This document shows, in pieces, positions 6,383 to 23,748 of a stretch of DNA of 25,374 bases. The DNA lies in IMG/VR virus record IMGVR_UViG_3300046007_014014, positions 1 through 25,374 of that record. One strand, 5' to 3'. Every line of letters begins with the position of its first letter. The stretch's first letter is position 1. Both the position numbers and the translations under genes were made by a program. The notes beneath the pieces were generated by a model that saw only the letters and a list, made by a program, of their open reading frames with translations, ran no database searches and was not told the origin of the DNA. The stretch comes from a virus.

Positions 6383-9136
6383 TCAACCCCAATCGGTGTC
6401 CTCCCAATCTCCGTAGTCCTGCGTAGAACCGGGGGTCCCATATATCTCCGAGGCCGTGTCCAAAACCTCCGGCGGTTTTTCCGAAACCGCTGTGCTGGAG
6501 AGGGTTTCAGCCTCGGAGGTTTTGGACAACCCCTCCGTGTGTCCGAAACTGTCCGAAACCTCTAGGGGCATTTCGGCAGCGTTTTCCACAAAAGTTTCCA
6601 CAGGCAGCTCGGTCTCATGCGTCGCAGCTGAGACTGTGCCTTGCTGAACTGTTTCGACCTCGGAGGTTTTGGACATTTTGGGGTTTTGGACAATTTCGTC
6701 TGTACCCTGTCCAAAACCCAAATCCCTTCCAGCACAAGGAGTTCCAAAGAAAGAAGGAGGGTTTTGGACACTCCGACCCTCGTATATAGGGGCTTTGACT
6801 GAAAAACCCACCTGGGGTCTCCCACCTTTAGGTCCCGTCTGTCTCACTTGGGTTTCCTCTACGAGGCCGGCAACAACCCACCGCTGCGCCCACCGCTTAA
6901 CCGTCTTCTCACTGACGATCGTCCCTGGTCCCCTACGCCCTGCCAGCCGGCTATTGAGCGCGTAGCGCAGCTCCTTAGCTGTCATCGGCGCCTCTGCCTC
7001 CTTGAGGATCCCGAGAACGATCGTCCGTGGCGTCTCATCGCCCTGCCCACCGTTCTCTCGGGTCACAGTCGGGGTGAGATCCTCAATGCTCAGCGCTTCC
7101 TCAATGTCCTCCTGCACCAGGAAGCGATCCCCACCCCGCATGCCCCGACTCTTGTCGATTTCGAGGATGAGCGCATGATCCCCGTACTGAGCGCGCTCCT
7201 CGTCCGTCAGGTCCTTCAGTTCCCAGGTCTCGTGCACCGCATTCCGCAGCGTGTCTGTGCCGCGGAACTTCGTCCCGTCCTTGGTGTTGTGGTGGATCCA
7301 CAGAAATGTCGTCGGTGGGAACGCCGTCCCGTTCTCCCGCGCCAAGCGATACAGCGTGTTCGAGTACTCCTTCTCGTACTCCTTGGCCGCAATCATCGTG
7401 CTCACCGACGTGAGTGAGTCGACTACCACCAGTACTGGCTTGAGCTCTTGCAGCCACCGCAAGAGCACCCTGTACTGGCTTTGTTGCCACTGCGGTTTGA
7501 ATCGGAACCAGGTATCGGCACCGGTCGAGTCAATCCCCTGCTGATCCAGGTACTCCGCATAGTCCGTCATCGACATGTCGTTGCCGATGAACAGCACATT
7601 CCCCGAGACCGTCGGCTCGACCGTCAGCCCCCGCACCTTCATCGGCAGCTTCTGGCCCACGATCTTGGCCAGCAGCACGGCAAGGCGTGTCTTACCCATC
7701 CCGCCCCTTGCGTGCAAGAGAATCGAGCTCGGTGCCGACACAAAGTCCGGGATCAGGTAGTCCCGCTGCCCGCGCATCTTCTCCTGCCACTGCGGGTCTT
7801 CCTCTACCTGCTCCTGGTGCAGCAGGAACCGCTCGAGCGCTGACTCCACCTGCGGCCCCGACTTGTACACGTGTGTCAGCCCGGAGTCCCGCACCAGCTC
7901 CATCAACTGGTAATGCGCGAGCTCGGCATTGTCGTACCCGTTGATGATCTTCTCGGCTGCCGTAAAAAACTCCTGCCCCGATAGCCGTTTCAGCGGCGCA
8001 TCTTTGATGGTGACCTCGGTCGCCGTTGCGCACGCCGGGTAGTCGTACCCCAGCTCCACGGCCAGCTCCGCCACATAGGCCTCGAGGGCGGGCCCACTCG
8101 GACGCCCAGCGTGCATGTCCTTGGTGCGGATCTTGTGGACGAAATCGAGCACGTCACCACCTACACCACACGCTTTGCAGTCCCAGCAACCGGTCTCTTC
8201 CGCGTACTGGAATGTCGTCCCGCTCTGCCCCCCGTGCCACGGGCAGCCGCTCATGCGCTGGGGCTTATCTCCACCGCGGCTCTTCCACCCGTACCGGTCA
8301 AACACCTCGTGGTTGAACACCAGATCAGCCAACCGCGGCCGCAGCAGCGACTGCACCTCCTCCTTGAAAAACCACCCACGGATCTGACGTGGCGGGACAG
8401 CTGTCTGCCCCCCGAGCTCGCTCATCACCTCCTTCTGCTCAGCCTCGGACAGCCATTGCACCGGCTTCCGATGTGGGCGCAGCACATCCAGCACCCACTG
8501 CGGTGCCGTCTCTACCTTTCCGCCGTTGTAGTTGAGGAACCGATAGGGCTGTTTTGTTTCCGGGTGTGGTGAGCCAGGGACCACGCTCTGACAGGCGTTG
8601 AACCGCAGCACCACCTCTTCGTAGGCAGCCCCACTGATCGCGTCCACATCACCACCGGCACCCCGGTTTGTATCCCCATGCCCCAGGTGCCACTGCCCAT
8701 CGTCCGTGCGCAGGATCAAGGTCTTCACATCCCCGAGCTCGGGAACCAAACGCTTGGGTACCTGATACAGGATCTGCCGACGCCCGGGCTTACCCGAAGT
8801 CCACGACATGGTCCGCTCCTCGCCATAGACCTCGTACTCTGGCCCTGCCACTTCGCGATAGCGCTGATCGGCGTCAAGCCCATCGATGTCGAGGGCTATG
8901 AGTCCCCCCGAGAACGAACCTGTCACCACACCCAGGCCTACGTATTCCTGCCTGAGCTGGTAGGCCGTCATGCACTCAATCCGCGTCAACGGCTTAGTGC
9001 TCCACTCCTTTACAAAGGTGGCTTTTCCCGCAACTGGCACAAAAGCCCATCCATCTGGAAATACATCACGTCGCAGCAATTCGATAGCTCGCCCTTTTAA
9101 GAGATCCGAGCTATTGCCATTGAGCTCTTTGTCCAT
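6383..9136 (-). CDS. PrimPol-type primase with zinc finger and RecA-like ATPase/helicase domain
   Basis: 917 residues. N-terminal archaeo-eukaryotic primase-like domain (~15-220): GLIALDIDG supplies the DxD pair (D83, D85), TSGKPGRRQILYQV follows, and VVPGSPHPET ends the domain. The classical His of motif II is Gln121 here, a form I recall from cyanobacterial plasmid primases. Residues ~298-332 form a CHC2-like zinc finger (C298, H301, C317, C320/C323). The ATPase part has Walker A ARGGMGKT (~476-483), Walker B LVVVDS (~569-574) and sensor-like WIHHN (~613), as in RepA/DnaB-related helicases. A winged-helix section follows near 700-790. The last ~110 residues are low-complexity and coincide with a striking nucleotide repeat cluster. 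It divides from the SSB gene at 9390 across a 250-nt divergent region. Confidence 0.88.
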   Translation of the reverse strand: MDKELNGNSSDLLKGRAIELLRRDVFPDGWAFVPVAGKATFVKEWSTKPLTRIECMTAYQLRQEYVGLGVVTGSFSGGLIALDIDGLDADQRYREVAGPEYEVYGEERTMSWTSGKPGRRQILYQVPKRLVPELGDVKTLILRTDDGQWHLGHGDTNRGAGGDVDAISGAAYEEVVLRFNACQSVVPGSPHPETKQPYRFLNYNGGKVETAPQWVLDVLRPHRKPVQWLSEAEQKEVMSELGGQTAVPPRQIRGWFFKEEVQSLLRPRLADLVFNHEVFDRYGWKSRGGDKPQRMSGCPWHGGQSGTTFQYAEETGCWDCKACGVGGDVLDFVHKIRTKDMHAGRPSGPALEAYVAELAVELGYDYPACATATEVTIKDAPLKRLSGQEFFTAAEKIINGYDNAELAHYQLMELVRDSGLTHVYKSGPQVESALERFLLHQEQVEEDPQWQEKMRGQRDYLIPDFVSAPSSILLHARGGMGKTRLAVLLAKIVGQKLPMKVRGLTVEPTVSGNVLFIGNDMSMTDYAEYLDQQGIDSTGADTWFRFKPQWQQSQYRVLLRWLQELKPVLVVVDSLTSVSTMIAAKEYEKEYSNTLYRLARENGTAFPPTTFLWIHHNTKDGTKFRGTDTLRNAVHETWELKDLTDEERAQYGDHALILEIDKSRGMRGGDRFLVQEDIEEALSIEDLTPTVTRENGGQGDETPRTIVLGILKEAEAPMTAKELRYALNSRLAGRRGPGTIVSEKTVKRWAQRWVVAGLVEETQVRQTGPKGGRPQVGFSVKAPIYEGRSVQNPPSFFGTPCAGRDLGFGQGTDEIVQNPKMSKTSEVETVQQGTVSAATHETELPVETFVENAAEMPLEVSDSFGHTEGLSKTSEAETLSSTAVSEKPPEVLDTASEIYGTPGSTQDYGDWEDTDWG
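6458..6769. repeat. Cluster of eight GTCCRAAAC sites (iteron/origin candidate)
   Basis: On the plus strand GTCCAAAAC occurs at 6458 and 6709 and GTCCGAAAC at 6541 and 6551; the complement GTTTTGGAC occurs at 6519, 6666, 6683 and 6761. Three copies extend to a 14-mer: GTCCAAAACCTCCG at 6458-6471 and its exact complement at 6514-6527 and 6661-6674. Read in the primase frame, the copies encode VQN, SKT, GFG, SFG, VLD and VSD, so all three codon frames and both orientations are used. This points to constraint on DNA rather than protein. Confidence 0.75.
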
Positions 9137-9193: not shown

Positions 9194-9248
9194 CTTGACC
9201 GTGTTTCACCGTAACGAGCTACCAGATCCCTGACAACCCACCGCGGTA

Positions 9249-9262
9249 AGTCTCACGAGACT
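9249..9262. promoter_or_regulatory. Palindromic AGTCTC/GAGACT site
   Basis: AGTCTC and GAGACT are separated by two bases between the divergent primase and SSB genes, about 30 bp upstream of the predicted -35 element. A dyad in a divergent intergenic region is a natural operator position. Related AGTCTCA sites occur near other gene borders in the window. Protein partner unknown. Confidence 0.4.
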
Positions 9263-9293
9263 CACTGATTATTGCGAGTTTTCCTGCAGATCG

Positions 9294-9322: not shown

Positions 9323-9389
9323 CTGCTCACGAGGCCGGGAAACCCCCGACCTCTGGCACATCACCCACTATTTACGGGATTTCGCCCCC

Positions 9390-12262: not shown

Positions 12263-13153
12263 ATGTCGGACCTCATCTCCCAGTACCTCAGTGACATCTC
12301 CCGGCATCCGATCCTCTCGCGCGAAGCCCAGCTCCGTCACGCCTATCGCATCCGCGCATGGGTCGACTACACCCCACCCGGCTCCACCGAGCCCGACCGC
12401 TCCGCCGCCCCCGCTCACATTGCACGCCCCGGCAAGCGCTCCCTGGACATCATGGTGCGAACCAACCTGCGCTTAGTTGTCCACCTCGCCAAGCGCTATC
12501 AGAACCGAGGCCTCGAACTCAGCGATCTGATCCAGGAAGGCAGCCTCGGTCTCATCCGAGGCATCGAGCTCTTTGACCCAACCCGCGGATACGCCTTCAG
12601 CACATACAGCTATTGGTGGATCCGCCAATCTATTTCACGCGCAATCTATAACTCCTCCCGCACAATACGGCTACCAATAAACGTGCAGGATCTTTCTACC
12701 AAGATCAAGCGCGCCATGCACACTCTGACTGCCTCTTACGGCAGACCCCCCTCCATCGATGAGCTCAGCACCGAGCTCGAGCTTCCCCCTGAGCGCATCA
12801 CCGAGACCTTGATCAGCTGCACCATTACCAGCTGCACCTCCATTGACGCCCTATGTCAGCTCTCTGATGCCCCCATCTCCGAGGTACTCAGCTCTGACAA
12901 CCCGACCCCGTCAGAAAGCCCAGAACTCACCGTATCCCTCATCGAGCGCGAAGAGCTTCTACAAAAAGCCCTCGCGACCCTTGACCCTACGCAACTCCTT
13001 GTGGTGCAAGCGATCCACTTTGAGCAACGCAGCCGCCACGAGCTATCCGACGAGCTCGGTATATCCCGCTATTGCATCTCATCGATCTACAAAAAAGCTA
13101 TGCACAAGCTAAGAGTAGAGCTCACTTATAACTGGGATGCGTTTAACGAGTGA
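12263..13153 (+). CDS. RNA polymerase sigma factor (sigma70 group 2-like)
   Basis: 296 residues. Region 1.2: ISQYLSDISRHPILSREAQL. Region 2: TNLRLVVHLAKRYQNRGLEL, DLIQEGSLGLIRGIELFDP and YAFSTYSYWWIRQSISRAI, nearly canonical for cyanobacterial SigA/B-type factors, so core binding and -10 recognition should be kept. Region 3: TIRLPINVQDLSTKIKRA. Region 4.2: SRHELSDELGISRYCISSIY then KKAMHKLR; the recognition helix, normally TRERVRQIE, is strongly changed. Region 1.1 is missing, as in group 2 and 3 factors. A linker of extra residues (~30-60) separates regions 1.2 and 2. Last gene of the operon from 9968; it meets a minus-strand HNH gene one base later. Probably directs phage middle or late transcription. 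Confidence 0.9.
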   Translation: MSDLISQYLSDISRHPILSREAQLRHAYRIRAWVDYTPPGSTEPDRSAAPAHIARPGKRSLDIMVRTNLRLVVHLAKRYQNRGLELSDLIQEGSLGLIRGIELFDPTRGYAFSTYSYWWIRQSISRAIYNSSRTIRLPINVQDLSTKIKRAMHTLTASYGRPPSIDELSTELELPPERITETLISCTITSCTSIDALCQLSDAPISEVLSSDNPTPSESPELTVSLIEREELLQKALATLDPTQLLVVQAIHFEQRSRHELSDELGISRYCISSIYKKAMHKLRVELTYNWDAFNE

Positions 13154-13154
13154 G

Positions 13155-13802
13155 CTACCAGACAGTAAATTCTTCTACTTCTATGCCCTCCATAGCAAAA
13201 GCGTATACACCTGTGTGCTTACAGCGGTATATACGCTGATAGATAGTGGAGTAATTTAGTCCTACTTCTTTGCATAAGCTCTTAGCGCTATACAGTATTC
13301 CCTGGTATAAGTACATGGTTTTAGTTACGTTACCCACTACAGGTCTTTTACTACGTAGTATCCTAGATACAGCTATGCGCACTGTTTGTTCCTGTGGGGA
13401 TACGTAGTCTTTATTCTGTCTGCTCTTAGCTACTCCGCTTTCATCCCGTCCGTTATCATCTTGCCATCCTAGCGCTAGTTCTTCTTTTCCTATGTGTCGG
13501 ACAACCATACTACCTGGATTTTGACCGGTTTTTAAGTAGTACGCAATCCTGTGTGCGTAAAATACTCCATGCCCCCGCACGGACACTAACCATTTTGCTC
13601 CGTTTTTTGAACCAGCTGGTTCACCTATTTTAGCTTTACCATTTTTACTAGCAACTTTCCATACAAGGCCCGAAGGCGAGGTACTAGATAGCTCGAGCAG
13701 ATCTTCAACTATTGGTGGAATGGGGCGTGGAGCGCCATTCCTGTTGAGCGCGTAGTGCACATCGGTCAGCGGAAGGCAGCGCTGGTATGTCTGAGCAGGC
13801 AT
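13155..13802 (-). CDS. HNH/AP2-type homing endonuclease-like protein, catalytic site degenerate
   Basis: 215 residues from the ATG at 13802 (a TTG at 13826 would add eight). SPSGLVWKVASKNGKAKIGE, KWLVSVRGHGVFYAHRIAYY and KTGQNPGSMVVRHIG follow the layout of HNH_3-type free-standing endonucleases, where the last part normally reads xxxDHxNxxxxDNR. Here it is RHIGKEELALGWQDDNGRDE, so the second HNH half is altered and activity is doubtful. The C-terminal part (SAKLCKEVGLNYSTIYQRI-like, YSAKSLCKEVGLNYSTIYQR) is a NUMOD/HTH-type DNA-binding segment. The gene is far more AT-rich and TA-rich than its neighbours and faces the opposite way, consistent with recent insertion. Confidence 0.65.
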   Translation of the reverse strand: MPAQTYQRCLPLTDVHYALNRNGAPRPIPPIVEDLLELSSTSPSGLVWKVASKNGKAKIGEPAGSKNGAKWLVSVRGHGVFYAHRIAYYLKTGQNPGSMVVRHIGKEELALGWQDDNGRDESGVAKSRQNKDYVSPQEQTVRIAVSRILRSKRPVVGNVTKTMYLYQGILYSAKSLCKEVGLNYSTIYQRIYRCKHTGVYAFAMEGIEVEEFTVW

Positions 13803-13845
13803 ACAGGTCTCTGAGGTACCCCACAAGCATACCCCCTACAACTTT

Positions 13846-13853
13846 TATTTATA
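13846..13853 (-). promoter_or_regulatory. TATAAATA box upstream of the HNH-like gene
   Basis: On the minus strand the octamer TATAAATA lies 44 nt before the ATG at 13802 in an AT-rich patch. It is the T4-type late promoter consensus and also passes as a plain -10 box. No good -35 is seen. Confidence 0.4.
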
Positions 13854-13920
13854 TACAGTTTTTCTAGCCCAGGATGTGACATATCCCCCTCTAGCCCAGT
13901 CTCACTGCGACGCAGGGCTG

Positions 13921-13978
13921 GACTCATGTCCCTCAGGTGCGACGCATGAGACTCATGTCCCTCAGGTGCGACGCATGA
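13921..13978. repeat. Perfect 29-bp tandem duplication
   Basis: Two identical, directly adjacent 29-bp units (13921-13949 and 13950-13978), each beginning GACTCATGTCC and ending GCGACGCATGA; the first nine bases of a third unit's border (GACTCACTG-like) follow. The unit contains TGAGACTCA and GCGACGCATGAGAC. The latter 14-mer also occurs, inverted, in the primase repeat region at 6612-6625. A further CTAGCCCAG repeat (13864 and 13891) lies just to the left. Confidence 0.85.
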
Positions 13979-13994
13979 GACTCACTGGGGTAGC

Positions 13995-14023
13995 TTGACG
14001 GCCGCGCGGTGCCGTGCCAGACT
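13995..14023 (+). promoter_or_regulatory. Promoter P1 of a three-promoter array
   Basis: TTGACG at 13995-14000, 17-bp spacer, CAGACT at 14018-14023 preceded by CCGTGC. The same GCTTGAC...CGTGC arrangement recurs in P2 and P3. It is immediately followed by a terminator-like hairpin. Confidence 0.5.
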
Positions 14024-14029
14024 GACCTC

Positions 14030-14055
14030 ACGCGCGCACATCATGCGCGTTTTCG
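14030..14055 (+). terminator. Terminator-like hairpin just after P1
   Basis: ACGCGC / GCGCGT with a nine-base loop and a following TTTCG. It begins about seven bases after the -10 of P1, so a P1 transcript would be only ~25-30 nt unless the hairpin is bypassed. Confidence 0.5.
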
Positions 14056-14064
14056 TCTTCCTAG

Positions 14065-14086
14065 GCAACCCTCCCTAGCGGGTTGC
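14065..14086 (+). other. Hairpin abutting promoter P2
   Basis: Perfect arms GCAACCC / GGGTTGC (7 bp) with an 8-base loop end on the base before TTGACG of P2. The same arms occur at 1163-1187. It may isolate P2 from upstream transcription or be part of a short RNA. Confidence 0.5.
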
Positions 14087-14116
14087 TTGACGGATTGGCG
14101 GACCCCGTGCAATACT
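14087..14116 (+). promoter_or_regulatory. Promoter P2 of a three-promoter array
   Basis: TTGACG at 14087-14092, 18-bp spacer, AATACT at 14111-14116 preceded by CCGTGC. The left part GGTTGCTTGAC.GAT.GGC is shared almost base for base with P3. The expected transcript immediately enters a long-range 8-bp pairing GCGCAGCC (14130-14137) / GGCTGCGC (14174-14181). Confidence 0.6.
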
Positions 14117-14206
14117 CAAGACATCGGGAGCGCAGCCGCCCCGCGGAGCCTAGGCCTCAGGTCAGCTCCCCATGGCTGCGCACCGGTACCGGCTCCGGCC
14201 GGTTGC

Positions 14207-14236
14207 TTGACAGATCGGCACCCCACGTGCCACACT
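14207..14236 (+). promoter_or_regulatory. Promoter P3, candidate promoter of the structured RNA
   Basis: A consensus TTGACA at 14207-14212, 18-bp spacer, CACACT at 14231-14236 preceded by ACGTGC. Predicted start near 14243. It shares GGTTGCTTGAC and CGTGC with P2. Confidence 0.6.
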
Positions 14237-14242
14237 TCATTC

Positions 14243-14738
14243 AGTTCAGAACCACCAATGCATTAAGCGCAACAGCGCAGCCGATAAAGCGCGGCCGGCC
14301 GGGCGGATCCCGGAGCTATAGCAGCAGTGCGCCCAAACTGACTGGGCGCTAGCTCTTGCACCTCACGGACGGCCTGCTCGGATCACACCGAGCACGAGGA
14401 CCGTCGCCGAGATACCCGAACGCCGTAACAGTTGGCGATAGAGGGTGAGGCGATCAGTACCCGATGGCTGGGGGCAAGCAAGCGAACGCGGAACCTCCTG
14501 CAGGAGGGCGCACTGCATGTGTTTTTACCGATCCCGCTGCTGCAGGGGGATCAACGCTGCTCCCGACAGGGATCACAGCGGGTGCACCGGCCCCTTAACG
14601 CCCGGTCTGCAGATACGCCCATAGGGCAGCCCGCCGCTCCGGCTTCACTAGGACGGCCAAGCCCCGGCACACGGCTCTGCCGGGCACAAACTCTCTCCCC
14701 CAGAAGTTCCCCCTGGCGCGCTGCGTCCGGGGGTCTTT
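14243..14738 (+). ncRNA. Candidate structured non-coding RNA, about 0.5 kb
   Basis: No credible gene exists between 13827 and 14784. From the predicted P3 start to the terminator at 14709-14738 the sequence is packed with helices: GAGCTA (14313) / TAGCTC (14350) extended by GCGCCCA (14329) / TGGGCGC (14343); a three-way arrangement CCTCAC (14361-14366) / GTGAGG (14445-14450) enclosing GACGG/CCGTC with TGCTCGG/CCGAGCA (14375-14394) and CGCC/GGCG (14421-14437); CCTCC-TGCA-GGAGG (14494-14507); GATCCC/GGGATC (14530-14552); CCCGGCA/TGCCGGG (14663-14684). The ORF at 14432-14809 in this stretch lacks a start signal, conserved motif or normal composition. No tRNA, tmRNA or RNase P signature is recognised. 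Transcript borders are inference. Confidence 0.5.
14709..14738 (+). terminator. Intrinsic terminator closing the structured region
   Basis: A stem CCCCC-T-GGCG / CGTC-C-GGGGG (nine pairs around one mismatch) with a five-base loop is followed by TCTTTT. It ends 46 nt before the ATG of the next gene. Confidence 0.75.
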
Positions 14739-14760
14739 TGGCTGAGGGACTTACCCCCTC

Positions 14761-14784
14761 CATCCACTCAAGCTGTGATCAGCA
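14761..14784 (+). repeat. 24-bp leader repeat, copy 1
   Basis: CATCCACTCAAGCTGTGA followed by TCAGCA lies directly before the ATG of the 14784 gene. The same 24 bases, with one change, occur before the gene at 16031. Copy 1's last base is the A of the start codon. No Shine-Dalgarno core is inside. Confidence 0.8.
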
Positions 14785-15065
14785 TGTACTTTCAGCATCT
14801 TTGCGCTAGTAACGATTCCAACGGGAATCCGCGCCGTTTGTACGTCCTCGTTGATGAGGAACTCTCTGTAGCCGCCCGTGTGGCCGCATGGGACGAGGGC
14901 CACGCCGGCCACCTTGCTGTGCCTGGTATCTGGCGCGAATGCGCTTACCTCGCCAAACGTATGGACATAACCGTGTCCCTCTACAACGAGCTGCGCCGCG
15001 ACCTCCCCAGCCCTAAGTGGGCTCACGAGGTGCCCGGCTTTTCTCATCTTCGCGAGCTCGTCTGA
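14784..15065 (+). CDS. Hypothetical protein
   Basis: 93 residues from the ATG at 14784 (MYFQHLCASNDSNGNPRRLY). VLVDEELSVAARVAAWDEGH and an MDITVSLYNELRRDLPSP segment follow. Alpha/beta in character, no recognised motif. I prefer this ATG to the GTG nine bases upstream because the latter lies inside the 24-bp leader repeat. First gene after the structured region and the start of the right-hand accessory operon. Confidence 0.7.
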   Translation: MYFQHLCASNDSNGNPRRLYVLVDEELSVAARVAAWDEGHAGHLAVPGIWRECAYLAKRMDITVSLYNELRRDLPSPKWAHEVPGFSHLRELV

Positions 15066-15099
15066 CTGATTCCCGAACCGGTTACCCCGCATCCCTGTT

Positions 15100-15390
15100 A
15101 TGTACCGCAACACTTGGTTTCACGGCCGCAACGCTCTGCGGCAGCTCCCTTTGGAGTGCATCTGCGACTGCTCCGGCGCTGGCGATCGTGATGACGACGT
15201 AGGCCGCTGGGTGGATCGTCTCGAGTTCGACGGCCCCTCGTGGATTTTCCGCGAATACCTACGCGGTTTCGGCGCATGGGACGCCCGTGATCTGGCCGAT
15301 CACAACGAGAACCGCAAGCGCGTCCTCTGGACCTGGGCCTGCAACTGCGCCAAAGCACCCGGTGCCTACGCCTACCTCTACCTGGAGTGA
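15100..15390 (+). CDS. Hypothetical Trp/Cys-rich protein
   Basis: 96 residues, MYRNTWFHGRNALRQLPLEC at the start, then CDCSGAGDRDDDVGRWVDRL and a C-terminal VLWTWACNCAKAPGAYAYLY. Four to five Cys and several Trp, but not spaced as a standard zinc finger. Three nt separate it from the next gene, indicating an operon. Upstream gap (15066-15099) contains ACTGATTCCCGAA, repeated after the gene ending at 16732. Confidence 0.65.
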   Translation: MYRNTWFHGRNALRQLPLECICDCSGAGDRDDDVGRWVDRLEFDGPSWIFREYLRGFGAWDARDLADHNENRKRVLWTWACNCAKAPGAYAYLYLE

Positions 15391-15393
15391 CCC

Positions 15394-15582
15394 ATGACCT
15401 ACGAGATCTTCGCCACCATCACCGACGAACTCGGCACTCGCTGCGTCCCCACTGGCATCTGGGGATACAGCCGTGCCGATGTCGTGCTGGAACTCGCCGG
15501 CCTCACCCGCCGTAGCCGTAACCCCGGGGAGACCTTCTACATCGAAGAGGTCTTCTCCGAGGACGCCTTCAACGCTTGGTAA
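15394..15582 (+). CDS. Small hypothetical protein
   Basis: 62 residues from an ATG three nt after the previous stop. Acidic, beta/alpha (FATITDELGTRCVPTG, then FYIEEVFSEDAFNAW). No motif recognised; operon position and codon usage match its neighbours. Confidence 0.65.
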   Translation: MTYEIFATITDELGTRCVPTGIWGYSRADVVLELAGLTRRSRNPGETFYIEEVFSEDAFNAW

Positions 15583-15585
15583 CCC

Positions 15586-15750
15586 ATGGACCGCTATTCC
15601 AAATCCCTCGACGTCTGGCATCTGCTCCACTCCGCCGAGCAACTCGTCATCAACGACAAGGACTACCACCCAAATGTCGTGCAGATGCTCAACAAATGCA
15701 TGGACATTGTCGAAACCCTCCAGCACGACCTCGAGGCATCCCAGCCATGA
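15586..15750 (+). CDS. Small helical hypothetical protein
   Basis: 54 residues, MDRYSKSLDVWHLLHSAEQL then VVQMLNKCMDIVETLQHDLE. Almost entirely amphipathic helix, likely an oligomerising or partner-binding protein. Starts three nt after the preceding stop and shares ATGA with the next gene. Confidence 0.65.
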   Translation: MDRYSKSLDVWHLLHSAEQLVINDKDYHPNVVQMLNKCMDIVETLQHDLEASQP

Positions 15751-15947
15751 CCCTGACCTTCACCCGTTCCCTCGGCGGCTATGTCGTCCGCCTGAACCGT
15801 GCGCTGATCGGCCTAATCCTCGCCCCCGAACCCACGGAACGCGACTGGCGGATCCTCACCGAGCACGGCGAATGCGCTACTGCCCCCACTTTGTGTGAGG
15901 CAAAACGCCTTGCCGCCGACTTCCTCCTGCTGGACCACGCGATCTGA
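15747..15947 (+). CDS. Small hypothetical protein
   Basis: 66 residues starting MTLTFTRSLGGYVVRLNRAL at an ATGA overlap. Predicted beta-beta-alpha with a C-terminal helix CEAKRLAADFLLLDHAI. The longer frame from 15576 is rejected because the coupled ATG fits the operon. No known family recognised. Confidence 0.65.
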   Translation: MTLTFTRSLGGYVVRLNRALIGLILAPEPTERDWRILTEHGECATAPTLCEAKRLAADFLLLDHAI

Positions 15948-16001
15948 AGCACCCCCGGAGCCCTTCCCTCGTGGTCGGCTCCCTGGGCGCCTCTGCGCCT
16001 T

Positions 16002-16025
16002 CATCCACTCAAGCTGTGACCAGCA
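16002..16025 (+). repeat. 24-bp leader repeat, copy 2
   Basis: Identical to 14761-14784 at 23 of 24 positions (T to C at one base). It ends five bases before the ATG at 16031. A GGGCGC-CTCT-GCGCC hairpin lies just upstream (15985-16000), so both copies follow a stem-loop. Confidence 0.8.
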
Positions 16026-16030
16026 CAACC

Positions 16031-16732
16031 ATGACCAACTCCAACGGGCGAGTCCTCTACGAGGGCCCGTCGCTGCTTGACGGCGCCCCCATCGTCGTTA
16101 TAGCCACCGGCTTCACCGAGCGTTCCGGTAACGACAAAACCGGCGCCATGCTCCAGACCTGGATCCTCCGTGCTGACATCCCACCGCACCACGCCTTCAC
16201 CAGCGAGGCCGGCGCCTCCGTCTGCGGCGACTGCCCCCACTTCCTGAATCGCACCTGCTACGTCCGCTGGTATCAGGCCCCGCTTGCCGTCTGGAACTGC
16301 TGGCACCACGGCGCCGGCTACGCCCCGGCTTCCCCATCCGACTTTGATGACGCCATACTCCGCGTGGGCTCCGCCGGTGATCCAGCCGCCGTCCCCGCCG
16401 CCATCTGGCTGCCAATCCTCGAGCGCGTAGCAGCGCACACCGGCTATACCCACCAGTGGCGCCAACCTGTTGCCGCCTGGGCCTGCGGCCTCCTGCAGGC
16501 CAGTTGTGACGGCTTCGCCGACTACCTCGACGCCACGGCGCACGGCTGGTCCACCTTCCTCGTGACCCCCGCCGACACCCCCGCTCCCGCAGGCACCGTC
16601 CACTGTGCCGCCTCAGCCGAGCGCGGCCACAAAACCACCTGCGCCGCCTGCACCTTGTGCGATGGCGCCTCTGCCAACGTCGTGATCCACGCCCATGGCT
16701 CCCGCGCTTCCCGCGTCGCCCTGCGTAACTGA
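16031..16732 (+). CDS. Cys-rich hypothetical protein (probable metal-binding)
   Basis: 233 residues from the ATG at 16031. The middle reads SVCGDCPHFLNRTCYVRWYQ...WNCWHHG and the end HCAASAERGHKTTCAACTLC DGAS, giving two Cys clusters (CxxC, CxxxxxC, and HC...CxxCxxC) consistent with zinc or an iron-sulphur centre. I have seen this layout in phage and plasmid proteins of unknown function (DUF7227-type), but cannot assign a reaction. It has its own leader with the 24-bp repeat, suggesting separate regulation. Confidence 0.7.
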   Translation: MTNSNGRVLYEGPSLLDGAPIVVIATGFTERSGNDKTGAMLQTWILRADIPPHHAFTSEAGASVCGDCPHFLNRTCYVRWYQAPLAVWNCWHHGAGYAPASPSDFDDAILRVGSAGDPAAVPAAIWLPILERVAAHTGYTHQWRQPVAAWACGLLQASCDGFADYLDATAHGWSTFLVTPADTPAPAGTVHCAASAERGHKTTCAACTLCDGASANVVIHAHGSRASRVALRN

Positions 16733-17881: not shown

Positions 17882-17988
17882 TGCGCCGCTTGCTCCTCTC
17901 CTTCGCAGCCGCCGCGCTCTGCACCCCCGCGCAGGCCCGCACCGTCACCGCCACGGGTACAATGGGTTGGTTGCATGAAGAGCCTTGA
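17881..17988 (+). pseudogene. 5' fragment of an interrupted secreted double-psi barrel gene
   Basis: Encodes a clear signal peptide (MRRLLLSFAAAALCTPAQA) followed by RTVTA, then leaves the gene's sense after 24 codons and stops with TGA at 17986-17988. The same reading frame resumes 208 codons later at 18559 with REVTASVYDSWYHG. The original gene would have been a ~110-residue secreted protein. The stop overlaps the endonuclease start as TTGA, so the endonuclease may be translated by coupling from this fragment. Confidence 0.7.
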
Positions 17989-18563
17989 CCGAGGAATGGA
18001 AGCCTGTCCCGCTTGAGGGCTACTGTCACCTCTACTTGGTTTCCAGCCTGGGGCGCATCAAATCCCTCGATCGCCAGGTCGTCGAGAAGACAGGCTTTAT
18101 GCGCCTACACAAGGGAAAGCTGCTCACTCCAAAGAAGACCGGAGCATACCTGGGCGTTTCTTTCTTCGACGGTGTGAGCAGCAAACGCTTCTACATCCAC
18201 CGACTGGTGGCAATGGCGTTCATCCAGAACCCGTTCAACAAGCAGTTCGTAAATCACCTCAACTTTGACCACCGTGACAATCGTGCAGAAAATCTGGAAT
18301 GGGTCACTCCAAAAGAAAACACTGCCTGGAGCGCAGCTGCTGGGCGGCTCAAAAGCGGTGAAGTCCCGCGCGGAGCCGAATGCCAGCGCAGCAAACTCAA
18401 CGATGAAATGGTCCGCGAAATGCGCCTCACTTGGAAACCAGGCGCATCAATGCAGGAGCTTGCTCGTCAGCACGAAATCACGCCGGCGGCTATTTACAAG
18501 ATTCTTCGCGGCAGCAGTTGGAAGCACGTGGAGCCTCCTGTTGCCGTCAACTGGGCACGCTAG
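17985..18563 (+). CDS. HNH homing endonuclease (NUMOD4-HNH-HTH), inserted in a host gene
   Basis: 192 residues from a TTG. NUMOD4-like start EEWKPVPLEGYCHLYLVSSL with GRIKSLDR, then HNH_3: YIHRLVAMAFIQNPFN, QFVNHLNFDHRDNRAENLEW; the H...NH...N set is intact. A C-terminal HTH (MQELARQHEITPAAIYKILR) should recognise DNA. This is the I-HmuI-like arrangement. Only ~30 nt before and none after the ORF remain in the insert, so there is no room for a group I intron core; it is a free-standing type insertion. Lower GC than both flanks. A TACAAT box at 17957-17962 may be its own -10. Confidence 0.88.
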   Translation: MTEEWKPVPLEGYCHLYLVSSLGRIKSLDRQVVEKTGFMRLHKGKLLTPKKTGAYLGVSFFDGVSSKRFYIHRLVAMAFIQNPFNKQFVNHLNFDHRDNRAENLEWVTPKENTAWSAAAGRLKSGEVPRGAECQRSKLNDEMVREMRLTWKPGASMQELARQHEITPAAIYKILRGSSWKHVEPPVAVNWAR

Positions 18564-18825
18564 AGAAGTAACAGCTTCTGTTTACGACTCCTGGTACCAC
18601 GGCCGCACCACCTACTGCGGCGACGTCTACCGCCACTGGGAAACCTCCGCCGCCCACCCCTGGCTCCCCTGCGGCACCCGAGTGCGCGTCTCCCACCGAG
18701 GCCGCACCCTCACGGTGCCCATCACCGACCGCTGCGACTGCGCAAGTTTGGATCTCAGCGGCGGCGCCGCCTACCGCCTAGGCGTCCCCCTAGACGGCAT
18801 CGCCTCCGTGCACATCTCTTACTGA
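18541..18825 (+). pseudogene. 3' part of the interrupted gene: 3D/RlpA-like double-psi barrel domain
   Basis: The frame encodes AREVTASVYDSWYHGRTTYC, then HPWLPCGTRVRVSHRGRTLT and VPITDRCDCASLDLSGGAAY, the hallmarks of RlpA-like/3D-domain proteins (a conserved T-x-T-W/Y-Y front, PCGTxVRV, and a D-R-x-D/C...DLS end), which bind or act on glycans. It has no ATG; a TTG at 18541 inside the endonuclease's end would give PSTGHA before the domain, resembling a crude replacement of a signal-peptide end. Whether it is expressed, and exported, is open. The first ~30 bases after the junction use AT-rich codons (aga gaa gta aca gct) unlike the rest of the exon. Confidence 0.7.
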
Positions 18826-18840
18826 GTCTCATGAGTCTCA
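18824..18840 (+). promoter_or_regulatory. Tandem GAGTCTCA site
   Basis: GAGTCTCAT and GAGTCTCAC are arranged as two direct 9-base units across the stop codon of the barrel gene and the ATG of a 20-codon ORF. The AGTCTCA heptamer recurs in pairs at other gene borders. Confidence 0.35.
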
Positions 18841-18893
18841 CTATCCGCTACACCCGCCGCACCATCTACCCCGTTTGCGCCCCCAATGCCTGA
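18831..18893 (+). CDS. Very short ORF, possible leader peptide or gene remnant
   Basis: 20 residues, MSLTIRYTRRTIYPVCAPNA, overlapping the start of the next gene (ATGCCTGA). The YTRRTIYPVxAP motif resembles the front of longer cyanophage proteins that I recall, so this may be a truncated relic or a coupling leader. Evidence is limited. Confidence 0.35.
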   Translation: MSLTIRYTRRTIYPVCAPNA

Positions 18894-22708: not shown

Positions 22709-23057
22709 CTATGCAACACCCGAGCAGTGGGCCCAGTGCGAGGAGTGGGTGAACAACCCCGTCGTCGGAGCTACCGATGCTTGCCTCCTGGAGCTCCGCA
22801 CCAGGGTCAGCGCGCTTGAAGACGACAGCTGGAAGCAAGCAGAGAGCGCCCGCTTCTGCGTTGATGTACTGGTCAAGCGCATCGAAGCGCTGGAGGCCAA
22901 CTCCAAGCGAACTTCTAATCCAAGCCAAATTAGGAGTTCGCTTGTTGAGGATCTCGCCGATCTGATCGCTGTGCAGACCAGGGATCACGGCACCGAGGAC
23001 GACACAGCCGGCGGCACCCGCGCCGGCTGGCTCCTCGAGCGCGAGGCAGAGCGATGA
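22701..23057 (+). CDS. Small hypothetical protein carrying the hairpin repeat
   Basis: 118 residues from ATG 22701. The front TPEQWAQCEEWVNN and coiled-coil LLELRTRVSALEDDSWKQAE resemble small cyanophage proteins I recall. In the middle, the hairpin repeat at 22905-22943 encodes KRTSNPSQIRSS, interrupting the coiled-coil section, after which the frame continues LVEDLADLIAVQTRDHGTED. Coupled by ATGA to the ITPPPELV gene. Function unknown. Confidence 0.7.
   Translation: MPDYATPEQWAQCEEWVNNPVVGATDACLLELRTRVSALEDDSWKQAESARFCVDVLVKRIEALEANSKRTSNPSQIRSSLVEDLADLIAVQTRDHGTEDDTAGGTRAGWLLEREAER
22905..22943 (+). repeat. Hairpin repeat inside a coding sequence (copy 2)
   Basis: AAGCGAACTTCTAAT and ATTAGGAGTTCGCTT form a 15-bp stem (one G-U) around a 9-nt loop. 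The core CTAAT/ATTAGGAG and loop length match copy 1 at 457-481, in an otherwise unrelated gene. Confidence 0.82.
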
Positions 23058-23407
23058 CACAACACCCCATCACCCCACCGCCGGAGCTGGTGCAGGAGTG
23101 GACGGATGCTTTCTGGAACGAGCCTGGAAATTATGTTGGCATAGATGACGAAGCATTAGCCACCCGAGCCGCCCAATGGGGCGCCGACCAAGAGCTGGAG
23201 GCGTGTTGTGAGTGGCTAGAGGAAGAAACCCCGGAGCCATATATCAACGCACTCCGTGCTGCCCGCCGCCCATCTCTGAAGCCGCCGAGCCTGAAGGAGC
23301 AGGCGCTAGAGCAGTTGGATGGAATTGCAGCCGTATTCCGAATGTCTCACGGTGGCGATCTCGTGTGCGACACCATCCGCCGCGCCATTGAGGCGCTACC
23401 TGAATGA
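23054..23407 (+). CDS. ITPPPELV-family protein, paralogue A
   Basis: 117 residues, MTQHPITPPPELVQEWTDAF, then TRAAQWGADQELEACCEWLE, PPSLKEQALEQLDGI and a TIRRAIEALPE ending. The same order occurs in the 303-794 and 23404-23748 genes. Helical and acidic with a conserved CC; function unknown. ATGA overlaps on both sides. Confidence 0.8.
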   Translation: MTQHPITPPPELVQEWTDAFWNEPGNYVGIDDEALATRAAQWGADQELEACCEWLEEETPEPYINALRAARRPSLKPPSLKEQALEQLDGIAAVFRMSHGGDLVCDTIRRAIEALPE

Positions 23408-23748
23408 CTAAACAACAACAACAACCCATCACCCCACCGCCGGAGCTGGTTCAGCAATGGGTTGATGCTTACTTTGGTGGCACGGTTGCCCAAACCAACT
23501 TTCATTTAGACCTTGCCACCCGCGCCGCCCAATGGGGCGCCGACATTGAGCTGGAGGCGTGCTGTGAGTGGGTCAAAAGCAAGCAGACCTATTGGGCACA
23601 CGACGAACTTCGCGCCACCAGGCGGCCCAAACCGCCGAGCTTGAAGAAACAGGCGCTTGACGAGCTGCACATCAGTTTCGACAGGGGCTACCTCAAGGAA
23701 GGAGCTGCCGACACCATCCGCCGCGCACTGGAACAGCTCAATGACTGA
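23404..23748 (+). CDS. ITPPPELV-family protein, paralogue B
   Basis: 114 residues, MTKQQQQPITPPPELVQQWV, then TRAAQWGADIELEACCEWVK and a TIRRALEQLND end. Its DNA matches paralogue A closely over the ITPPPELV and AQWGAD blocks but diverges between, typical of tandem duplication with fast drift. Overlaps the next gene by 8 nt. Confidence 0.8.
   Translation: MTKQQQQPITPPPELVQQWVDAYFGGTVAQTNFHLDLATRAAQWGADIELEACCEWVKSKQTYWAHDELRATRRPKPPSLKKQALDELHISFDRGYLKEGAADTIRRALEQLND

Follow-up and report, generated by a model that had tools for sequence, protein, structure and literature searches.

Two different genes of one virus open behind nearly the same 24 bases, and this locus raises the question of what such a repeat does at a start codon, i.e., if it acts as a promoter in the DNA, if it acts in the RNA, or if it is the trace of a duplication. 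The window, which is the whole stretch of 25,374 nucleotides that was analysed, is a virus record and possibly a fragment. It encodes a polymerase A, a primase-like protein, an RpoD-like sigma factor (12263-13153), an endolysin and two HNH endonucleases, and the genes of the latter flank the leader region at 13155-13826 (- strand) and 17985-18563 (+ strand). Three paralogous small genes (ITPPPELV...) are found at 303-794, 23054-23407 and 23404-23748, two of them side by side and the third at the opposite end of the record.

The repeat and its two copies in the window

The two copies and the genes behind them are located as follows:

14761-14784, + strand: 24-base repeat, copy A, its last base being the A of the ATG at 14784
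14784-15065, + strand: open reading frame of a 93-residue protein after site A
16002-16025, + strand: 24-base repeat, copy B
16031-16732, + strand: gene of a phrog_2554 protein after site B (PHROG match, E 1.1e-69)

The copies differ at one of 24 positions (T at 14779, C at 16020). A sequence-only reading of this DNA had placed copy A immediately before the ATG at 14784; the adjacency holds, but the repeat runs into the codon instead of ending ahead of it. Five bases separate the end of copy B from the ATG at 16031, as described there. RNA folding yields the hairpin that had been seen in front of each copy, and the reported lack of a Shine-Dalgarno sequence was reproduced, with none of GGAG, GAGG, AGGA and AAGG upstream of 14784 or 16031. 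This lack is uninformative, since 23 of 28 examined starts of the window (hand-picked from the list of open reading frames, one of them, 15587, placed one base off) are also without one.

A search of the whole record with up to three mismatches, as had been proposed, returned these two copies only. The core CACTCAAGCTGTGA, again with up to three mismatches, was matched three times against 2.38 expected, which is not unusual, and what counts is the pair of exact copies rather than the matches to this core. In first-order Markov simulations of the window, a direct pair identical at 23 or more of 24 bases arose in 0 of 60, and the other pairs of this quality in the real window belong to the three paralogous genes and to a tandem repeat at 13920-13985. 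The repeat core GCTG-TGAY-CAGC is a small hairpin itself and the lone differing base sits in its loop.

Relatives and architecture of the leader

In uncultivated viral contigs, related sites were found with 28 distinct sequences for site A and 19 for site B. IMG/VR, scanned for exact 20-mers, returned nothing, and relatives surfaced only via flanking genes or part of the upstream hairpin H1: gene-based searches gave 80 loci (the best 80 of 529) and another 7, and a 19-base piece from the 3' half of the hairpin found 45 stretches (loci are given below as L numbers). A 25-base H1 pattern had no exact match in GTDB genome contigs, and megablast of positions 1-25000 turned up no named phage as a nucleotide relative. 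Judged by the portal protein of the related 72-kb record G001, the cyanosiphovirus S-CBS4 of Synechococcus CB0101 comes closest among named phages, with 40% identity over 71% of the query. This makes a host among Synechococcus/Cyanobium likely, and the relatives with the leader are lake viruses, probably of cyanobacteria. Of the three copies of AGCTGTGA in S-CBS4, none has CAGC and a start after it, and this phage is not matched by the model R1 at E<=1. The R1 matches on A sites (e.g., 29.6 bits for site A of the window) stem in part from the shared core, because R1 was built on B sites including the 3' core.

The pattern AGCTGTGA-N0-8-CAGC was matched 34 times on the + strand and once on the - strand (1.15 Mb of window and loci, duplicates counted). 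In 14 records of 25-72 kb, possibly fragments, the exact core pattern is present 0, 1 or 2 times per record and 12 of the 14 have a match, which in two of these 12 (the records of L135 and L137) lies outside the leader architecture. The matches in L135, L137 and L139 were set aside as chance, as by eye their surroundings are without that architecture. Against a function, the sequence-only reading had held the case that only two copies exist and that they reflect a simple local duplication. The low number stands (0-2 copies per record searched), but a local duplication does not account for them since the two copies are two separate sites that are conserved in related viral contigs.

At both sites the repeat belongs to a larger arrangement with the following parts:

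14692-14697, + strand: P0 of site A (TCTCTC), able to pair with P0' at 14744-14749
14700-14741, + strand: hairpin H1 of site A by folding, with a 7-bp lower stem (CCAGAAG/CTTTTGG), a UU x U internal loop and an upper stem (CCCCC.GGCGC/GCGTC.GGGGG)
14744-14760, + strand: H2 of site A, P0' (GAGGG) with downstream CCCTC, alternative to P0:P0', from the sequence and its relatives
14772-14783, + strand: hairpin H3 of site A (GCTG-TGAT-CAGC), directly 5' of the ATG at 14784
15945-15956, + strand: P0 of site B, beginning with the stop codon TGA of the upstream frame (15945-15947), then AGCACCCCC
15957-15982, + strand: H1 of site B (GGAGCCC/CGGCTCC, 6 of 7 paired in the window) with a TT x T internal loop
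15985-15999, + strand: H2 of site B by folding, GGCGC (15986-15990) with GCGCC (15995-15999)
16013-16024, + strand: hairpin H3 of site B (GCTG-TGAC-CAGC), 6 nt before the ATG at 16031

The common layout begins with P0, a CC x CU internal loop and a ~7-bp lower stem, after which come an internal loop of UU x U or near to it, an upper stem and P0'. On the 3' side follow a strand capable of forming H2 with P0', the C/U-rich linker, H3 and the AUG. The stem sequences of A and B differ and the final ~24 bases are alike, and it was these that had first been noticed. Judged by this layout, the repeat looks like the 3' tail of a folded RNA leader that is set before the start codons of many different genes. 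Compared with shuffled sequences, the fold reaches a z of -3.8 at site A, and site B alone a z of -1.1. In the relatives, site A comes after a long non-coding stretch and site B after a gene; in loci showing both, B is about 0.6-2.0 kb further downstream.

At site A, P0 and P0' are fully paired in 28 of 28 distinct sequences, which fall into three sequence versions with double changes at 3 of 6 positions, the script pattern having constrained P0' but not P0. H2 changes along with these versions. In the lower stem of H1 variation is confined to L020 and L016, with pairing preserved in both. At site B, the lower stem of H1 is paired in 73 of 77 cells (11 sequences, chosen with the TGA disregarded, the S1 register set per sequence by maximal pairing), a value that 0 of 2000 shuffles reach, and 5 of the 7 pairs show changes on both sides in at least one sequence. 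The downstream strand of H2, GCGCC, is altered to GCCC(C/A) in 7 of 19 B sites. Pairing of P0 with P0' at B does not exceed that in shuffled sequences, 832 of 2000 of which reach it, and stays unproven. In all 11 B sites chosen regardless of TGA, the upstream frame has its stop codon inside P0 or at most 5 nt away; exceptions in its position are L083, where the TGA of the long frame is 5 nt further upstream, and L087, where it is inside the lower stem of H1. As B starts at the stop codon of the preceding gene, it lies inside a gene run with no intergenic room for a promoter. In L019 (11977-12080) there is a site B that has kept H1, has no H3 and is followed by a terminator-like hairpin (AGCGC-TCTCA-GCGCT-TTTT). 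A separate candidate leader in L024-L031, CACTCGC(W)CTTAG(W)ACGCG, was dropped as its apparent covariation is broken in L029.

The H3 stem at A is paired at 4 of 4 positions in 27 of 28 sites, 25 with GCTG/CAGC and two with the compensatory GCAG/CTGC, and one pair is broken in L100. These 28 sites were chosen by an exact 19-base piece of H1/P0', so that divergent A sites were missed, and H3 was not part of the selection; for each site, the loop length yielding most pairs was taken. The 28 sequences used for P0:P0' differ slightly (L016 in, L109 out), and there the 3' strand of H3 was restricted to CAGC, CTGC or AAGC. In L016, found by BLAST and outside the H3 set, the stem reads GCTT/AAGC. At B, GCTG/CAGC is present in 19 of 19 sites, picked by a pattern containing TGA and H3 that also favoured this stem. 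The loop measures 4-7 nt at A and 4-8 nt at B. Thermodynamically the hairpin is weak (-4.5 to -5.1 kcal/mol, z -1.0 to -1.7, four examples). From few compensatory events (2 of 28 plus L016), H3 can be regarded as an evolutionarily supported RNA hairpin at the initiation site. Its distance to the ATG at A is 0 nt in 22 of the 28 sites, 1 in five and 9 in one; at B (n=19) it is 0 in nine, 1 in five, 2 in one and 6-10 in four, with 6 in the window.

Many sites, but not all, have a GTG in the H3 loop that shares the frame of the ATG, so some leaders could be partly coding. As a general rule, this GTG as the true start was rejected, since several sites (e.g., L012 A, L016 B, L020 B and L083 B) have it out of frame. 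Pairing of GUGA with the anti-Shine-Dalgarno was rejected as well, GTGA being missing in L019, L092, L099 and L110 and in the TAGA/TAGC loops at B. CATCCAC precedes an ORF-opening ATG within 32 nt in 31 of 81 cases versus a control fraction of 0.176 and is not claimed as a general start motif, because the loci are related to one another and A/B sites contribute 7 of the 31.

The first proteins after A and B form many groups that look unrelated by their listed N-termini (no clustering). One type (MHSALTV...) is encoded after A in L105 and after B in L085, L121 and L125, and another lies directly after A in L110 and L121, yet has one gene between it and A in the window. The 93-residue protein of the window had no PHROG at E<=0.001 and no phage record by tblastn at E<=0.01, and seven related loci (L083-L089) are found for it.

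Proposed translational control and competing explanations

The repeat is, in our judgement and by a modest margin over an even chance, the 3' portion of a structured, start-associated RNA leader that occurs at no more than two sites per phage genome and in which H3 and the AUG form a translational control site. In more general terms, it looks like a portable control element for protein making rather than a promoter or a chance duplication. The transcript at each site would fold into the tall hairpin H1, whose closing strand P0' may pair either upstream with P0 or downstream in H2, and after the C/U-rich linker the short H3 would usually end right at the AUG. The working part would be H3 with the adjoining AUG, acting as translational control site for the next cistron. 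During initiation the ribosome covers the H3 region, so that H3 would have to open or be bound, which is the logic of phage translational operators. H3 and AUG could be read by an RNA-binding protein of phage or host, or by the ribosome directly, in a phage mostly without Shine-Dalgarno sequences. Between the leader and what precedes it, be it an RNA or a cistron, H1/H2 may insulate, act in processing or work as a switch. Of the functions suggested by the sequence-only reading, that of a translation enhancer or RNA-protein site is supported as far as an RNA-level element at start codons is concerned, by compensatory changes, short spacing to the ATG and varied following genes; how it works, including the effect on translation, a trans-acting factor, processing and the P0/H2 switch, we infer.

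It is unlikely, although it deserves to be weighed first, that the leader serves mRNA processing or stability, in which case an RNase III-like cut between cistrons would fall in H1 with its 2x1 internal loop, and what follows would be no more than the 5' end of the processed mRNA. RNase III sites of T7 are a known parallel for such cleavage. At both sites the tall hairpin carries the UU x U (or near) internal loop despite differing stem sequences and position B is intercistronic; the continuous helices are short, however, and the conservation of H3 and its closeness to the ATG would stay unexplained.

Less probable still is control of the elongating RNA, in which H1 of site A would terminate an upstream non-coding RNA and P0/P0'/H2 would be a terminator/antiterminator or a put/nut-like antitermination site. 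The GC-rich stem of H1 at A is followed by UCUUUU and thereby gives a terminator-like stretch, GGGGGUCUUUU, and P0' has potential partner strands both 5' and 3' of it, which change to match in the window, L019 and L016. However, the U-run at A also pairs with CCAGAAG in the fold, H1 is absent from the list of the terminator scan, H1 at site B has no U-run, and H3 beside the ATG is not accounted for.

That the repeat is a selfish or recombination-derived element marking insertion slots of accessory genes, with no regulatory role, is very unlikely: the genes behind A and B do vary among phages and can occupy either site, but recombination predicts neither compensatory changes nor a short spacing to the ATG. 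Least credible is a promoter or DNA operator for a phage sigma factor or repressor, the sequence-only reading's late promoter, for which the sigma factor gene and the length of 24 bases speak, but which is disfavoured by the compensatory pairing, the variation in loop length, the conserved RNA pairing beside the ATG, the missing gap upstream of site B, which opens at a stop codon, and a scan (sigma-70 type sites only) that gave no -10/-35 like hexamers at the repeats and a sole match in 13800-16200, at 14087-14116. An RNA-level role on the side of translation is favoured over the promoter reading, with a mechanism that is inferred.

An extension of the translational control reading, which we put forward with much reserve, is that a single trans-acting factor switches two accessory-gene slots at the level of RNA, with A and B as its matched pair of receptors; the factor would be a phage RNA-binding protein or the candidate ~500-nt non-coding RNA upstream of A. 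If true, this would be a plug-in expression system in which genes are exchanged and the leader stays, with Shine-Dalgarno-free starts abutted by hairpins and a bistable H1/H2 switch. The phage leader bears on how Shine-Dalgarno-free starts, the kind that prevails among the examined starts of the window, are chosen and regulated. It offers a defined RNA architecture that is tied to the AUG and portable between genes, and natural compensatory variants could serve as controls.

Known systems and neighbouring elements

No published description of this leader was found in the open-access literature, and the closest described kind is the Start-Associated Sequences (SAS) of cluster K mycobacteriophages. 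SAS and extended SAS are short conserved sequences at the start codons of different gene families in the non-structural genome part; the 13-bp SAS, GGGATAGGAGCCC, has an AGGAG Shine-Dalgarno core and 11-19 copies per genome, an inverted repeat lies just upstream in about half, some overlap the upstream stop codon, and the function is stated to be unknown (PMC3203893). The leader resembles SAS in its closeness (a few nt) to the starts of different-looking genes, its modularity and the upstream inverted repeat. In contrast to SAS, it has at most two copies, another sequence, no Shine-Dalgarno core and hairpins with compensatory changes. The SAS authors saw little support for mRNA hairpins in the inverted repeats (PMC3203893), and the leader gives covariation support for hairpins in a start-associated element.

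T4-like translational operators are likewise short RNA signals near start codons. The gp43 hairpin, with a UAAC loop, acts on gp43's own gene from ~40 bases ahead of the start, and RegA sites are unstructured and A+U rich (PMC3014915). The H3 loops of L019 and L099 likewise read UAAC; however, H3 usually abuts the AUG, unlike the gp43 hairpin, and the leader is structured, unlike RegA sites. The manA and wcaG RNAs are also structured RNAs in potential 5' leaders of phages of cyanobacteria (PMC2864571). Rfam covariance models, including those of manA and wcaG, gave no match in the window except one below threshold and at chance level elsewhere in it, and none in L012, L016, L019 and L020. The HK022 put and lambda nut sites resemble the leader as two RNA-structured sites per genome, but they act on RNA polymerase near early promoters and the leader is situated at start codons.

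In a more distant phage (L025, record G015) a different leader, CACCTAGCAAGGNTCA, is present in four copies within 2 kb, at 9358, 9965, 11019 and 11313. The copies lie 3-5 nt before the starts of four different genes (three ATG, one GTG), and two of the four come after H1/H2-like hairpins by eye. Since CACCTAGCAAGGNTCA contains AAGG, it is Shine-Dalgarno-like. It suggests that this kind of start-associated leader may be broader than the sequence found in the window.

Upstream of site A lies a further candidate element:

14237-14741 (approximate), + strand: candidate structured non-coding RNA of ~500 nt, running into H1 of site A

Both-sides changes in at least one of 9 sequences are seen for 35 of 135 predicted pairs, the structure having been predicted on the same alignment as the pair counts, and the single-sequence z is -2.0. 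No Rfam family matches the candidate at Rfam thresholds. BLAST links 14 distinct loci to its class, and in relatives the same slot is occupied by four other sequence classes with 9, 4, 3 and 1 loci. Promoter-like direct repeats (TTGACR, 18 nt, AATACT/CACACT) are located upstream of it at 14087-14116 and 14207-14236 (+ strand); the scan listed the former as its sole promoter-like site (0.4 expected), and the latter was read by eye in a repeat family. Finally, a family of near-palindromic repeats (GTGCGACGCATGAGACTCA / TGAGTCTCATGAGTCTCA), possibly an operator set, is found at 13920-13985, 9245-9267, 18821-18843 and 6612-6632, with a tandem arrangement at 13932/13961.
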